NCBI RefSeq assembly: GCF_029626155.1
Contig: NZ_JARUBL010000001.1
Span: forward strand, 5,560,501 to 5,624,500
Length of the DNA: 64,000 nt
Origin: Solwaraspora sp. WMMD1047
GTDB taxonomy: Bacteria > Actinomycetota > Actinomycetes > Mycobacteriales > Micromonosporaceae
Direction of reading: 5' to 3'
Shown here: positions 2,718 to 30,102 of the stretch, in pieces
Layout of the letters: each line of letters opens with the position of its first letter
Numbering within the stretch: the first letter of the stretch is position 1
Notes under the pieces: generated by a model
What the model was told of the DNA's origin: nothing
The model's input: the letters and a program-made list of their open reading frames with translations, nothing else
The model's database searches: none
Translations under genes and position numbers: made by a program

Positions 2718-4052
2718 CTAGCCGCCGAGCTCCCGGATCCGGATGTTGCGGAACGACACCTCGTCGCCGTCGCCGTGGTTCTGCAGCCCGATGTGACCGG
2801 CCAGCGACCGGGCCGGATCGGTGTTGGTGAAGTCGTTGATCCGCACCCCGTTCAGGAAGACCTGCAGCCGCTCCCCCTCGACCAGCAGTTCGTAGCTGTT
2901 CCACTCGCCCGGCGGGTTCAGCGCGGCGTCGCGGGCGGCCAGGTCGGCCGACTTGACGGGGTAGACCGCGCCGGTGGTGCGGTCGGCGGCGTCGGTCGCG
3001 TCGATCTGGACCTCGTAGCCGTTGCTCACCGCCGACCAGGGGTCGTCCGACGGCGGGAAGCCGATGAACACCCCCGAGTTGTCGTCGCCGGCCAGCCGCC
3101 AGTCCAGCTTCAACGAGTACGACCCGAACTGACGGGCGCGGTACCAGTAGAGACCCATCCCGCCGACCGAGGTGAGGGTGCCGTCGGAGTCGGTGAAGCC
3201 ACCCGGCCCGGCCTGCGCCCAGCCGGCACCGGGGGGCAGCGGGGTGTAGCCGCTCTCCGGGCGGCAGTCGGCCCGGGTCCGGCCGGCCGCGTACCGGATG
3301 CCGCCGAGCAGGTGGGTCCGGAAGGCCGGCTCGGCGTACGCGGCGTCGGTGTGGCCGCCGCCGGTGTAGAAGGACCGACCCCCCTGGTACGCCTTGCACC
3401 AGGCGTGCGGGTGGTCGGCGCCCATCGTGCCGCCGGAGTAGCTGGCCTCGTCGAGGGTGGCCAGCACCCGGGCGGTGGACCGGGCGTTGGACCGGTAGTC
3501 GTACCACTCGTCGGTGCGGGTCCAGGTCCGCGGCAGGTGGGCGGTGGCGGCGTGCCCCCGATCCACCACCGTCACGTCCGCCTGCTGGACCGGCGGATGC
3601 GAGGCGAAGTACGCCCCGACCAGGTCGCCGTAGAACGGCCAGTCGTATTCGGTGTCGGCGGCGGAGTGCACCCCGACGTACCCGCCGCCGCCCCGGATGT
3701 AGGCCTCGAAGGCGGCCTGCTGGCTGCCGTCCAGCACGTCCCCGGTGGTGTTGAGGAAGACCACCGCCTCGTACCCGGCCAGGTTGTCGGCGGTGAAGGC
3801 GGCGGCGTCCTCGGTGGCGGTGACGGTGAAGTCGTGCGCCGCGCCGAGCTCGCGGATGGCCTGGGTGCCGGCGGCGATCGAGTCGTGCCGGAAGCCGGCG
3901 GTGGCGGAGAAGACCAGCACGTCGTACCCGGAATCGTCGACGCCGACGGTCGGCCCGGCCCCGCCGGGGCTGTCGACCTCGGCCGGGCCGGTGCAGGCGA
4001 GCGTGGCGGTCACGGCCAGCACGCCGAGCATGGGGCGGAGGAATCTGCGCAT
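2718..4052 (-). CDS. secreted ThuA domain - DUF1080 (3-keto-disaccharide hydrolase) fusion, possible lipoprotein
   Basis: 444 residues. An N-terminal export signal ([20 protein letters not shown]) could end in a lipobox cysteine, though TLAC is not a canonical lipobox. Residues about 40-260 are a ThuA-like glutamine-amidotransferase-fold domain ([46 protein letters not shown]). Residues about 265-444 are a DUF1080 beta-jelly-roll ([45 protein letters not shown]). DUF1080 proteins are linked to hydrolysis of 3-keto-glycosides, and ThuA proteins occur in disaccharide-use operons. The product should act outside the membrane on a sugar conjugate. It starts 5 bases after the polyprenyl synthase stop, so the two are probably co-translated. 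Confidence 0.88.
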
Positions 4053-26704: not shown

Positions 26705-26932
26705 ATGGGCCAGGGCGTACACATGCAGGAGCTACCGGGCATCGGCAAGCGCTACGACATCGACCTGGGCCGGGGCGGCGACCGGGTATCGGTGGTGGTG
26801 CGCCGGGACGGCACCCGCGACCTCTACGTCTTCACCACCCGCTCGGAGGATCCGACCGCGGTGATCGAGCTGAGCGAGGAACAGGCGCGCAAGGTGAGTG
26901 CGGTGCTCTCCGGGACCTTCTTTGAGGCCTAG
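26705..26932 (+). CDS. small regulatory subunit of a cation/proton antiporter (KhtT-like N-domain)
   Basis: 75 residues: QELPGIGKRYDIDLGRGGDRVSVVVRRDGTRDLYVF, then EDPTAVIELSEEQARKVSAVL. This is the short domain found before TrkA-C in KhtT-like antiporter regulators, here without TrkA-C. The ATG at 26705 follows GGGAGAGG. It lies 53 bases before the antiporter gene on the same strand and probably modulates its activity. Confidence 0.8.
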   Translation: MGQGVHMQELPGIGKRYDIDLGRGGDRVSVVVRRDGTRDLYVFTTRSEDPTAVIELSEEQARKVSAVLSGTFFEA

Positions 26933-26985
26933 CACAACCAGGCCCCGCACAACCGGGCTCAGCACAACCGGCGGGGGGCGCCAGC

Positions 26986-28476
26986 ATGCACGCTGACCTG
27001 GTCGGTTTCGGGGCGATCGTGTTGATCGCCGGGCTGCTGGCTCGCGGCGGCCGGCGGTTCGGCCTGCCGACGGTGCCGTTCTACATGCTCACCGGCATCC
27101 TGCTCGGCCCCGGTACGCCCGGCCCGGTGCTGATCGAGCACCCGGAGGATCTGACGCTGCTGGCGTCGCTCGGCCTGGTCCTGCTGCTGTTCCACCTGGG
27201 TGTCGAGTTCCCGTTGCAGCAGGTGCTGGGGAGCGGCAGGCGGCTGTTCCTGGCGGCCGGCTGCTACATCGGCATGAACGTCGGCGCGGGGCTGTTGCTC
27301 GGCTTCGCGCTGGGTTGGGGGACGTCCGAGGCGCTGGTGATCGGCGGGGCGCTCGGCATCTCGTCGTCGGCGATCGCCACCAAGCTGCTCATCGAGCTGC
27401 GCCGGCTGACCAATGCGGAGACGCCGGTCATCCTCGGCATCATCGTGATCGAGGATCTGTTCCTGGCGTTCTATCTGGCGCTGCTGTCGCCGGTCCTCTC
27501 CGACGCCGGCTCCGCCGGTGAGCTGGCGCTCGACATCGCGACGAGCTTCGGCTACCTGCTGCTGCTGTTCGTGGTGGCCCGGTTCGGCGCGCGGTGGATC
27601 GGCCGGCTGATCGACAGCCGCGAGGACGAGCTGCTGGCGATCGCGATGGTCGGCCTGGTCGTGCTGGTGGCGGGGTTGTCGGCCGACGTCGGTGTCTCGG
27701 ACGCGATCGGCGCCCTGATGATCGGCCTGGTGATTTCCCGGACCTCGGTGCGGGAGCGGGTGGAGCGGCTGGTGACCCCGCTGCGGGACGTCTTCGCGGC
27801 GGTCTTCTTCGTGGCGTTCGGGTTGAGCATCGACGTCGGCGCGTTCGGGGCGGTGGCGGTGCCGGCGCTGCTGGCGGTGCTGCTCACCCTGGTCGTGAAC
27901 ATCAGCGCCGGCCTGGTCACCGGGGCGTTGTTCGGCTTCAACCAGCGGGGCGCGGCGAATGTCGGGCTGACCGTGCTCGGCCGGGGCGAGTTCTCGCTGA
28001 TCCTGGCGACGATGGCGCTCGCCGCCGGGCTGGACGACCGGATCGGGCCGTTCGTCGCGCTCTATGTGCTGGTGCTGGCGGTGCTCAGCCCGATGCTGGC
28101 CGCCCGGTCGCGGTATCTGGCCCGGGTCATCCCGGACCGGCTGCTGCGCAACCGGTGGCGGTACGTGCGCGAGGAGACGATGAGCACGGCCTGCACGCAC
28201 CTGGACCGGATCCAGATCACCGAGACCGACGAGGAGTCCTGCTCGCTCTGCGAGGAGACCGGGGACGACTGGGTGCATCTGCGGATGTGCCTGTCCTGCG
28301 GCGCGGTGCGGTGCTGCGACGACTCGGTGAACAAGCACGCCACCGCCCACTTCCACGAGACCGGCCATCCGCTGATCCGGACTCTGGAGCCGGGCGAGGA
28401 CTGGCGGTACTGCTACATCGACCAGACGCTGGTCCGCGAGCCGATGGGGTCGGCCACCACCACCGACCACACCTGA
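26986..28476 (+). CDS. CPA2 cation/proton antiporter fused to a UBP-type zinc finger
   Basis: 496 residues. Residues 1-380 form a KefB-like antiporter with about 12 membrane helices (GLPTVPFYMLTGILLGPG, LLLFHLGVEFPL, GISSSAIATKLL, IIVIEDLFLAF). Residues about 400-485 are a soluble UBP-type zinc finger: CTHLDRIQ, CSLCEETGDDWVHLRMCLSCG, RCCDDSVNKHATAHFHETGH. The usual RCK/TrkA-N nucleotide-binding tail is absent. In eukaryotes UBP fingers bind ubiquitin C-termini; the bacterial ligand is unknown. It should exchange K+ or Na+ for H+ at the cell membrane, with the finger as a cytosolic sensor or partner site. It follows its regulatory subunit. Confidence 0.92.
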   Translation: MHADLVGFGAIVLIAGLLARGGRRFGLPTVPFYMLTGILLGPGTPGPVLIEHPEDLTLLASLGLVLLLFHLGVEFPLQQVLGSGRRLFLAAGCYIGMNVGAGLLLGFALGWGTSEALVIGGALGISSSAIATKLLIELRRLTNAETPVILGIIVIEDLFLAFYLALLSPVLSDAGSAGELALDIATSFGYLLLLFVVARFGARWIGRLIDSREDELLAIAMVGLVVLVAGLSADVGVSDAIGALMIGLVISRTSVRERVERLVTPLRDVFAAVFFVAFGLSIDVGAFGAVAVPALLAVLLTLVVNISAGLVTGALFGFNQRGAANVGLTVLGRGEFSLILATMALAAGLDDRIGPFVALYVLVLAVLSPMLAARSRYLARVIPDRLLRNRWRYVREETMSTACTHLDRIQITETDEESCSLCEETGDDWVHLRMCLSCGAVRCCDDSVNKHATAHFHETGHPLIRTLEPGEDWRYCYIDQTLVREPMGSATTTDHT

Positions 28477-28596: not shown

Positions 28597-30102
28597 ATGG
28601 AACAGCTCGACGGCATCCCCGGGACTTCCGGACCGGCATCTGACCCGGGCCTGCTCCACATCCCGACCTACCTGTGCCACAGCTACCGGCCAGCTGACCG
28701 GGACGTCAACCAGTACTTCCACGACCTGTGCTGGGACGAGGGTTTCGCCTTCACCGTCGACTCGCCGCTGCGCCGGCTCTCCACCACCCGGCTGGAGATG
28801 ATGATGCGCTCCAGCGCCGCCTTCCTGGCCGTGGTCACCCGCCGCGAGGACCAGCCGCACTACCGCTGCTCGCCGTACATGGTCTACGAGCACGGCCTGG
28901 CGGTGCAGGCGCACAAGCCCCGGCTGGTGCTGCTGGAACGCAACGTCTCCGGCTCGCACTTCCCGCAGTCCCAGCACACGCTGGTGTTCGACCGCAACAC
29001 GCTGCGGCGCAGCCGCGACGAGATCCGGGCCAAGCTGCGGCTGCTCGCCGCCGAGAGCCGGGCGTACGTCAACATCGGCAACCGGGCGCTCGGCGACGTC
29101 GGCCTGCTGCTGCCGGCCACCACGCGCCACCGGGCCGCCGCCGAGGTGATCCGGGAGCTGCTGGACGAGGCCGGCTACACCGCCGTCGACCTGGACCTCG
29201 ACGACCTGGACAGCGCCCGGATGGCGACCCAGCTGGACCGGCTGGACTTCGTCGTCGGCGAGATCGGCGACCCGGACCTGGCCCAGCAGATGGCGTACCT
29301 GCAGGGCCGGTTCGTCCCGTCGATAAAGCTGCAGCACCAGCCGCCGACCCGGCCGAGCGCCAGCATCCCCCGCCTGTTCCTGGACCGTTCCCTGGAGATG
29401 GCCGGCTCGGCCGGTGAGGCGGTGCTGCGCTGGAGCGATCCCGACCAGCTCCGCCGGGAGCTGCGCGAGCGGATCCGCGAGCTGTCGGAGTCGCGCAGCG
29501 AGTTCGCCACCAAGGACGAGGGTACGGCGTACTTCCGCAGCCTCGGGCAGATCCGGGGACCGGTCTTCGTCAGCAACGCCGGCGCCGACAACGGCCTGGC
29601 CCGGGGCATCGTCGACCGGCTGCGCGGCTACAACATCCGGCCCTTCCACTACATGTACGAGAACAGCATCCGACCCGGCGAGTTCTGGAAGAACGAGCTG
29701 CCCCGCAAGGTCGCCGAGAGCCGGGTCTTCGTGCCGCTGATCAGCCAGGCGTACTGGAAGAGCGACTACTGCCGGCAGGAGTTCGAGACCGCGCTGGAGC
29801 TGCACCGGCAGCGCAAGCTGCTGATGGTGCCCTGCTTCCTCGGCCAGTCCGACGGCCCGGAGATCGAGGTGCACGGCATCTCCCTCGTCGATCTGCGCGA
29901 CGCCGAGCGGATCGAGCGGATCGTGGCCTATCTGGACGGTGAGCTGCTGGTGCCGGGCGGTCCGGATGTGCCGCCGACCCGGGCGGCCGACCGCGACGGG
30001 CCGTCGCCCCGGCTCGGCCTGGAGATCACCATCGCCCCGCCACCGGACTACGACGATCTCTACCGGCGCCTCAAGCGCCCCGACCAGAACGACAAGCCCT
30101 GA
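28597..30102 (+). CDS. TIR-domain protein with two additional Rossmann-like regions
   Basis: 501 residues. Residues about 320-450 are a TIR domain: GPVFVSNAGADNGLARGIVD, a box-2-like loop with RPGEFWKNEL, and YWKSDYCRQEFETAL, whose Glu395 aligns with the NAD-cleaving glutamate of prokaryotic and SARM1 TIRs. Residues about 22-130 look like a second TIR/deoxyribosyltransferase-like fold (YLCHSYRPADRDVNQYF, FLAVVTRR, SPYMVYEHGLAVQ with Glu98). Residues about 155-245 form a third alpha/beta unit. No membrane segment or signal peptide. GGAGG precedes the ATG. A NADase effector in defence or stress is inference from the family. Confidence 0.85.
   Translation: MEQLDGIPGTSGPASDPGLLHIPTYLCHSYRPADRDVNQYFHDLCWDEGFAFTVDSPLRRLSTTRLEMMMRSSAAFLAVVTRREDQPHYRCSPYMVYEHGLAVQAHKPRLVLLERNVSGSHFPQSQHTLVFDRNTLRRSRDEIRAKLRLLAAESRAYVNIGNRALGDVGLLLPATTRHRAAAEVIRELLDEAGYTAVDLDLDDLDSARMATQLDRLDFVVGEIGDPDLAQQMAYLQGRFVPSIKLQHQPPTRPSASIPRLFLDRSLEMAGSAGEAVLRWSDPDQLRRELRERIRELSESRSEFATKDEGTAYFRSLGQIRGPVFVSNAGADNGLARGIVDRLRGYNIRPFHYMYENSIRPGEFWKNELPRKVAESRVFVPLISQAYWKSDYCRQEFETALELHRQRKLLMVPCFLGQSDGPEIEVHGISLVDLRDAERIERIVAYLDGELLVPGGPDVPPTRAADRDGPSPRLGLEITIAPPPDYDDLYRRLKRPDQNDKP

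Follow-up and report, generated by a model that had tools for sequence, protein, structure and literature searches.

A UBP zinc finger fused to a KhtU-like antiporter accompanies a KhtT subunit without RCK_C in Solwaraspora and related actinobacteria

By which input can an antiporter of the KhtTU type be controlled if its small subunit has no sensing domain and a zinc finger of the UBP family is appended to the transporter? This question is raised by two neighbouring genes on a stretch of 64,000 nucleotides, hereafter called the window, of the 8.16-Mb genome of Solwaraspora sp. WMMD1047. PMC10117811 describes for KhtTU and for CpeAB of Streptomyces that c-di-AMP binds to the RCK_C domain of the small subunit and changes the contact of the latter with the transporter, weakening it in KhtTU and strengthening it in CpeAB. 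For KefC, the RCK domains are described in PMC11150392 as inhibiting by touching the transporter, with their detachment proposed to be activating. The system of the window resembles KhtTU of Bacillus subtilis and CpeAB in its two-gene layout, in possessing the N-terminal domain of KhtT and in a transporter which is 33-41% identical to KhtT-paired relatives (among the best 80 of 120). Unlike them it carries a UBP finger on the transporter and lacks RCK_C and, hence, any known c-di-AMP site. With the glutathione-gated K+/H+ exchangers KefC and KefB it has in common the membrane fold and a C-terminal cytosolic, here putative, control domain; this domain, however, is a zinc finger instead of an RCK domain, so that there is no RCK to bind AMP or glutathione.

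Both genes are located where a preliminary description of this DNA had reported a KefB-like membrane domain joined to a UBP finger, with a KhtT-like subunit encoded upstream (Table 1). The stop codon of the subunit gene (gene A) and the start of the antiporter gene (gene B) are separated by 53 bases on the same strand. A TIR-domain protein is encoded immediately 3' of the antiporter gene (window positions 28597-30099). Neither this gene nor the esterase gene upstream was matched in 35 related loci (flanks of up to 4 kb, E <= 1e-15), and a link of the two-gene system to either of them was rejected.

Table 1. Positions within the window of the two genes and of the protein features discussed in the text.
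Feature	Position	Strand	Remarks
Small subunit gene (gene A)	26705..26932	+	75 aa; KhtT N-terminal domain only
Antiporter gene (gene B), KhtU-like, with C-terminal UBP finger	26986..28476	+	496 aa
Na_H_Exchanger membrane domain	27016..28098	+	residues 11-371, PF00999
Glu156-Asp157	27451..27456	+	invariant in 45 aligned antiporters
Linker	28102..28191	+	residues 373-402, gap-free in 26 aligned members
Bacterial-type UBP zinc finger	28192..28440	+	residues 403-485
Arg433	28282..28284	+	36/36 clade fingers, 126/128 other finger matches (gaps in the remaining 2)
Cys443-Cys444 pair	28312..28317	+	36/36 clade fingers, 126/128 other finger matches (CS in L162; L254 is a fragment)

Gene A yields no Pfam match above the cut-off and no NCBIfam match. 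Yet, a profile built from 27 copies of it matches structures of B. subtilis KhtT, namely 7AGW, a construct of the N-domain (E 1.4e-11), and 7AGV (E 2.5e-11), and can be aligned to full-length KhtT relatives along their N-domain (73 columns, hhalign probability 99.3). A profile of 19 of these full-length relatives matches 7AGV along its length (E 3e-42) as well as other RCK_C structures. The gene A product ends two residues past a conserved phenylalanine, where KhtT would continue into RCK_C. All 27 aligned short subunits, as well as all 17 present in the family sample described below, terminate one to two residues after this invariant Phe73, while A, G, D, E or S may stand at their very end. 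As to the traits of KhtTU, the KhtT N-domain subunit beside the transporter is present, whereas the c-di-AMP-binding RCK_C is absent from the subunit, both in the window and in the 35 related loci (36/36).

The gene B product matches PF00999 with 185.9 bits (cut-off 26.2, E 1.3e-54) and, as its best NCBIfam match though under the cut-off, the CPA2 model TIGR00932 (132.1 versus 238.3 bits, E 2.6e-38). NapA and KefC are the best structural matches of its predicted model (mean pLDDT 79), in which residues 391-409, which overlap with the linker, are of low confidence and the interface of the finger is little informed. Judged by position, Glu156-Asp157 is the probable ion/proton site; it would be equivalent to that of KefC, whose ion-site variant Asp156Asn served for the comparison. 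The transported ion is probably K+ (K+/H+ exchange). Of the named proteins among the best 80 of 120 relatives, those of Plantactinospora and Micromonospora come closest to the antiporter (78-82% identical).

To which extent finger and short subunit belong together becomes apparent from the related loci, which were searched among the best 80 of 120 relatives. The 35 closest ones (L003-L037; 70-82% identical) all encode the finger and all possess an N-domain-only subunit directly upstream, so that, with the window included, the subunit accompanying 36/36 finger-antiporters measures 74-80 aa and is devoid of RCK_C. Of the 35 subunits, 34 were found by a sequence pattern and the one of L033, whose motif is divergent, by inspection. 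In contrast, the 45 farther loci among the same 80 relatives (33-41% identical) harbour no finger, and 42 of them encode a KhtT of 160-182 aa including RCK_C; in the remaining three, KhtT contains a frame break (L043), the locus is cut by a contig end (L042) or the subunit is N-domain-only (L082). The latter locus, which stems from an archaeal MAG, constitutes an exception to the pairing: its antiporter has no finger and its subunit (3351-3596) ends in a longer tail. In a sample of 121 genomes of the family, which overlaps with the first set, the finger form occurs in 17 (the own genome included), and in 17/17 it is accompanied by a short subunit. Found again at 35 other loci and in 17/121 genomes of the family sample, the architecture is not a product of chance, and the short subunit in 36/36 finger-bearing as opposed to the full KhtT in 42/45 finger-less loci means that the sensing domain of KhtTU is lacking while the transporter carries a finger. 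The architecture and its pairing with the short subunit are thus firmly established. The notion of a finger in place of RCK, as put forward in the preliminary description, holds in so far as the system lacks RCK_C and possesses a finger; RCK_C, however, is ordinarily part of KhtT, a polypeptide of its own, so that absence and gain concern two different proteins.

The family sample also contains eight loci (L290-L297) with KhtU-like antiporters which are 52-57% identical and lack a finger; a KhtT-like subunit was not detected within the 1.5 kb flanks of any of the eight. For 46 membrane domains a maximum-likelihood tree was calculated and rooted at the midpoint. In it, the 16 finger-bearing sequences included form a single clade (99/99), which is sister to six solo antiporters (joint branch 99/99), with the KhtT-paired transporters outside both groups. 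The window antiporter thereby groups with these KhtT-paired transporters, and three KefB-like antiporters likewise provided with a finger are placed well apart from its clade, for which reason their fusion looks independent. An ordinary KhtT + KhtU pair is found elsewhere in the own genome; the finger form is, therefore, an additional system.

Against the zf-UBP model PF02148, gene B scores 48.1 bits (cut-off 22.7, E 1.4e-12) over residues 419-485, while an N-terminal CxH pair begins at residue 403. The best solved relative of the finger is 2IDA (RPA1320), a bacterial finger (E 3e-25), followed by USP49, HDAC6 and USP5. When the finger is modelled on its own, confidence is low (pLDDT 67.6), and the single match of that model under E 0.001 is again 2IDA, with the fingers of HDAC6 and USP49 coming next. 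The finger belongs to the same subfamily as 2IDA and shares its Leu-Arg and CCDDSP motifs; it differs from it by its fusion to an antiporter and at position 446, which is always Asp in the clade but mostly Ser in other finger matches. For a closer comparison, the 36 fingers of the clade (window and L003-L037) were aligned with 128 other finger matches from a sample of 396 genomes, some of which are fragments (e.g. L201, L206, L240 and L254), giving 164 sequences. Invariant throughout the clade (36/36) are C403, H405, C419, C422, C435, C438, C443, C444, H451, H455, H461, C476 and D479 and, in addition, W429, L432, R433, D446 and W473. Outside the clade, position 403 is Cys in 98/128 fingers, and the N-terminal CxH pair is thus not universal there.

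The clade finger shares with the eukaryotic ZnF-UBP domains of HDAC6, USP5 and USP49 the fold and, according to the USP49 and HDAC6 alignments, 11 of the 12 positions which we take to be the eukaryotic zinc ligands. The last Cys of the USP49 alignment faces Asp479, invariant in 36/36, which corrects the earlier statement that all Cys/His positions of UBP domains are retained. Conversely, the Cys443-Cys444 pair provides one Cys more than the eukaryotic fingers compared; one of the two is presumably a zinc ligand and the other one extra. A further difference concerns the recognition of ubiquitin. The arginine by which USP5 and HDAC6 hold the ubiquitin C-terminus is, as we assume, that of their CGR motif, and the pocket tryptophan presumably likewise ranks among the canonical residues contacting the ubiquitin tail. 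Trp429 is invariant in the clade, and the alignments fit either Trp429 or Arg433 at the place of the eukaryotic Trp. At the candidate anchoring columns 445/446, however, neither Arg nor Lys is present: the clade shows D, S or N (36/36), and none of the 128 other finger matches has Arg or Lys there.

This bears on the suggestion of the preliminary description that ion flow might be gated by a finger which recognises the C-terminal end of Pup or of a ubiquitin-like protein, a reading which we regard as very improbable. The fold common to this finger and ubiquitin-binding ones speaks in its favour, as do the presence of Pup in the own genome and a co-occurrence of finger and Pup above expectation (62/95 versus 98/301 genomes). 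Among the 396 genomes, 160 possess Pup; 62 have finger and Pup, 33 the finger only, 98 Pup only and 203 neither. The resulting odds ratio of 3.9 is a sample-level count which ignores ancestry and genome completeness and is exceeded by that of the kinase association described below; perhaps it reflects shared ancestry. Besides the lack of the anchoring arginine in all 164 aligned fingers, it counts against such a reading that the finger is not confined to Pup genomes, since 33 of the 95 finger genomes show no Pup match, among them one with a fused antiporter-finger (G197). Moreover, related fingers occur on plasmid records of Rhizobium and Burkholderia, which are not known to possess Pup. Among the 26 genomes whose finger is linked to an antiporter, 21 contain Pup and five yield no match. 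Loss of the ligand-pocket residues in homologues, named in the preliminary description as evidence which would speak against it, is nearly what the anchoring columns reveal.

A survey of domain architectures, recommended in the same description, confirms that fingers recur fused to or beside other antiporters. PF02148 is present in 95/396 genomes of the phylum sample. Around 126 finger loci other than the window's own, a context of about 3.5 kb was inspected where contigs allowed; the profile yields 128 finger matches in 125 of these loci and none in L253. Eight of the 128 are fused to an antiporter, three to KefB-like ones with RCK_N and five to CPA1-like ones (seven confirmed by Pfam, L148 by the profile only). 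Another 18 are located less than 2.5 kb from a separate antiporter gene, 12 of them in divergent orientation, four on the same strand with the finger first and two with the antiporter first; many of the divergent pairs are not independent because they are probably orthologous. For 102 matches no antiporter was found within 2.5 kb, some of these lying on short contigs. Given 10 antiporter genes per 8.16 Mb, a density taken from the own genome only, and a catchment of about 6.2 kb each, some 0.8% of fingers would be expected beside an antiporter, as compared to 18 of the 120 non-fused ones observed. Chance adjacency was, accordingly, rejected.

Several of the inspected loci deserve mention in their own right. 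The second finger of the own genome (C1:4187175-4188952, L172/L173) is encoded by a separate small gene directly 3' of a CPA1-like antiporter gene. In three Actinoplanes loci (L013, L021 and L024) the KhtU-finger cassette is arranged tail to tail with a CPA1-like antiporter and a separate finger. The KefB-like antiporters in which RCK_N is followed by a UBP finger are those of L113 (3545-5617), L115 and L117. An LtrA membrane protein is fused to a UBP finger in L130 (1927-3582), and in L127 (3477-5234) a cNMP_binding + HATPase_c kinase bears a C-terminal one, a separate finger gene being close by. In 11 of 20 long finger frames scanned with Pfam the finger is the sole domain. The antiporter's finger is the only one found in 13 of the 25 genomes with a cassette of the window type.

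Genes for thioredoxin-reductase-like and for cyclic-nucleotide-binding proteins are frequent in the surroundings of fingers. Among the first 150 of 200 immediate neighbours, a set without fused fingers and without five of the loci, Na_H_Exchanger PF00999 (9), cNMP_binding (9) and Pyr_redox_2 (7) are the Pfam families encountered most often. In the own genome, a cNMP_binding/HATPase kinase gene comes after a thioredoxin-reductase-like (TrxR) gene, and 31/126 finger loci contain relatives of one or both (E <= 1e-8). Fingers were matched on 87 plasmid records, four of which were examined for context. The order is trxA, finger, FAD oxidoreductase in Rhodococcus and trxA, finger, cNMP-binding thioredoxin reductase in Streptomyces; in Rhizobium the finger is followed by an FAD oxidoreductase, and in Burkholderia, where trxA is absent, the FAD oxidoreductase is encoded on the opposite strand. 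The cNMP kinase (E <= 1e-60) occurs in 36/95 finger genomes as opposed to 13/301 others. The corresponding odds ratio of 13.5 ignores ancestry, as do the adjacency counts, and kinases may be undercounted since only the best four candidates per genome were scored. These patterns echo the idea, reportedly advanced by Burroughs, Iyer and Aravind in 2011, that bacterial ZF-UBP domains are part of a cyclic-nucleotide-dependent redox system. With that system the window's own shares a homologous finger and the presence of the TrxR-like and cNMP kinase gene pair in the genome; it differs in that its finger sits on an antiporter and in that the gene pair is not obligatory. An obligatory partnership was rejected because 8 of the 25 window-type genomes tested (from 35 loci) show no kinase, which is present in the other 17; six of these eight also show no TrxR match (E <= 1e-40), and 20 of 26 genomes tested have one. 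Among the 26 antiporter-linked-finger genomes of the sample, the kinase was found in 13 and not found in 13. In L028, which is of the window type, and in the KefB-like L113, the gene of the finger-antiporter and the TrxR-kinase pair converge.

How, then, might the antiporter be controlled? As the KhtT N-domain is kept but the RCK_C sensor is missing, another input is needed if the system is regulated at all, and the finger is its only other recognised cytosolic domain. We infer that the finger has taken over the role of the RCK_C sensor. Most probably the small subunit, with its KhtT N-domain, continues to bind to the transporter and to hold it in check; the finger, whose linker has a constant length, would adjust this restraint according to a cytosolic signal. 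That the finger controls or gates transport, as already supposed in the preliminary description, appears likely to us: it is present in all clade members examined and not in their sister group, it is tied to the short subunit, and it recurs with antiporters. The signal may be the thiol/redox state, which the zinc site or the additional Cys of the CC pair would perceive, a thioredoxin-reductase-like partner taking part where one exists. For this input, a proposal already contained in the preliminary description as redox/metal signal, speaks the gene context of fingers (neighbours, operons and kinase co-occurrence); against it stands that the TrxR/kinase pair adjoins the antiporter in just one of the 35 window-type loci. 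Among the conceivable inputs it takes the lead, though its assignment is tentative. Considered as a whole, the explanation by a KhtTU-derived antiporter with the finger as a cytosolic control module and thiol/redox state as its likeliest input seems to us evenly poised between right and wrong.

The finger might, alternatively, sense nothing and merely stabilise the transporter dimer or hold the KhtT-N subunit, as RCK_C dimerisation may do in KhtT. Zinc-ligand positions invariant in 36/36, the fixed linker length and the joint occurrence of finger and short subunit in 36/36 would all suit such a clamp, which nevertheless leaves unexplained both the stand-alone homologous fingers in redox operons and the conservation of Trp, Leu-Arg and CC across unrelated partners; we consider it unlikely. 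A variant of ubiquitin-tail reading, in which the finger would recognise the free C-terminal end of its own short subunit, could account for the uniform end of these subunits shortly after Phe73 and is in line with the longer tail of the N-domain-only subunit in the finger-less L082. The canonical carboxylate-binding Arg is absent, however, and the terminal residues vary, which renders this variant improbable. Improbable to a still higher degree is a sensor of zinc or another metal whose occupancy gates the antiporter. In its favour, eleven Cys/His positions, together with Asp479, do not vary within the clade; against it, UBP fingers with three zinc ions generally play a structural role, and no metal-homeostasis family is present among the 25 of 118 neighbour families listed for other finger genes.

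A published link between a finger and an antiporter was not found in the open-licence literature, although antiporter-UBP fusions may have been mentioned earlier, nor did the literature searched contain a tested function for bacterial UBP fingers. With the antiporter, these fingers gain a concrete candidate effector, while the functions of ubiquitin- or Pup-related proteins should not be transferred to bacterial UBP domains by virtue of their name. RCK-type sensors are a standard device for coupling K+ flux to small-molecule signals in bacteria; the existence of a clade that has a zinc finger and no RCK_C suggests that this point of control is exchangeable. It is conceivable, albeit doubtful, that bacterial UBP fingers represent a general thiol-responsive module for cation/proton antiporters, independently acquired by at least three types (KhtU-like, KefB-like with RCK_N and CPA1-like) and used instead of or beside RCK-type nucleotide sensing. 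If so, one redox signal would reset the cytosolic K+/H+ balance through several antiporters.
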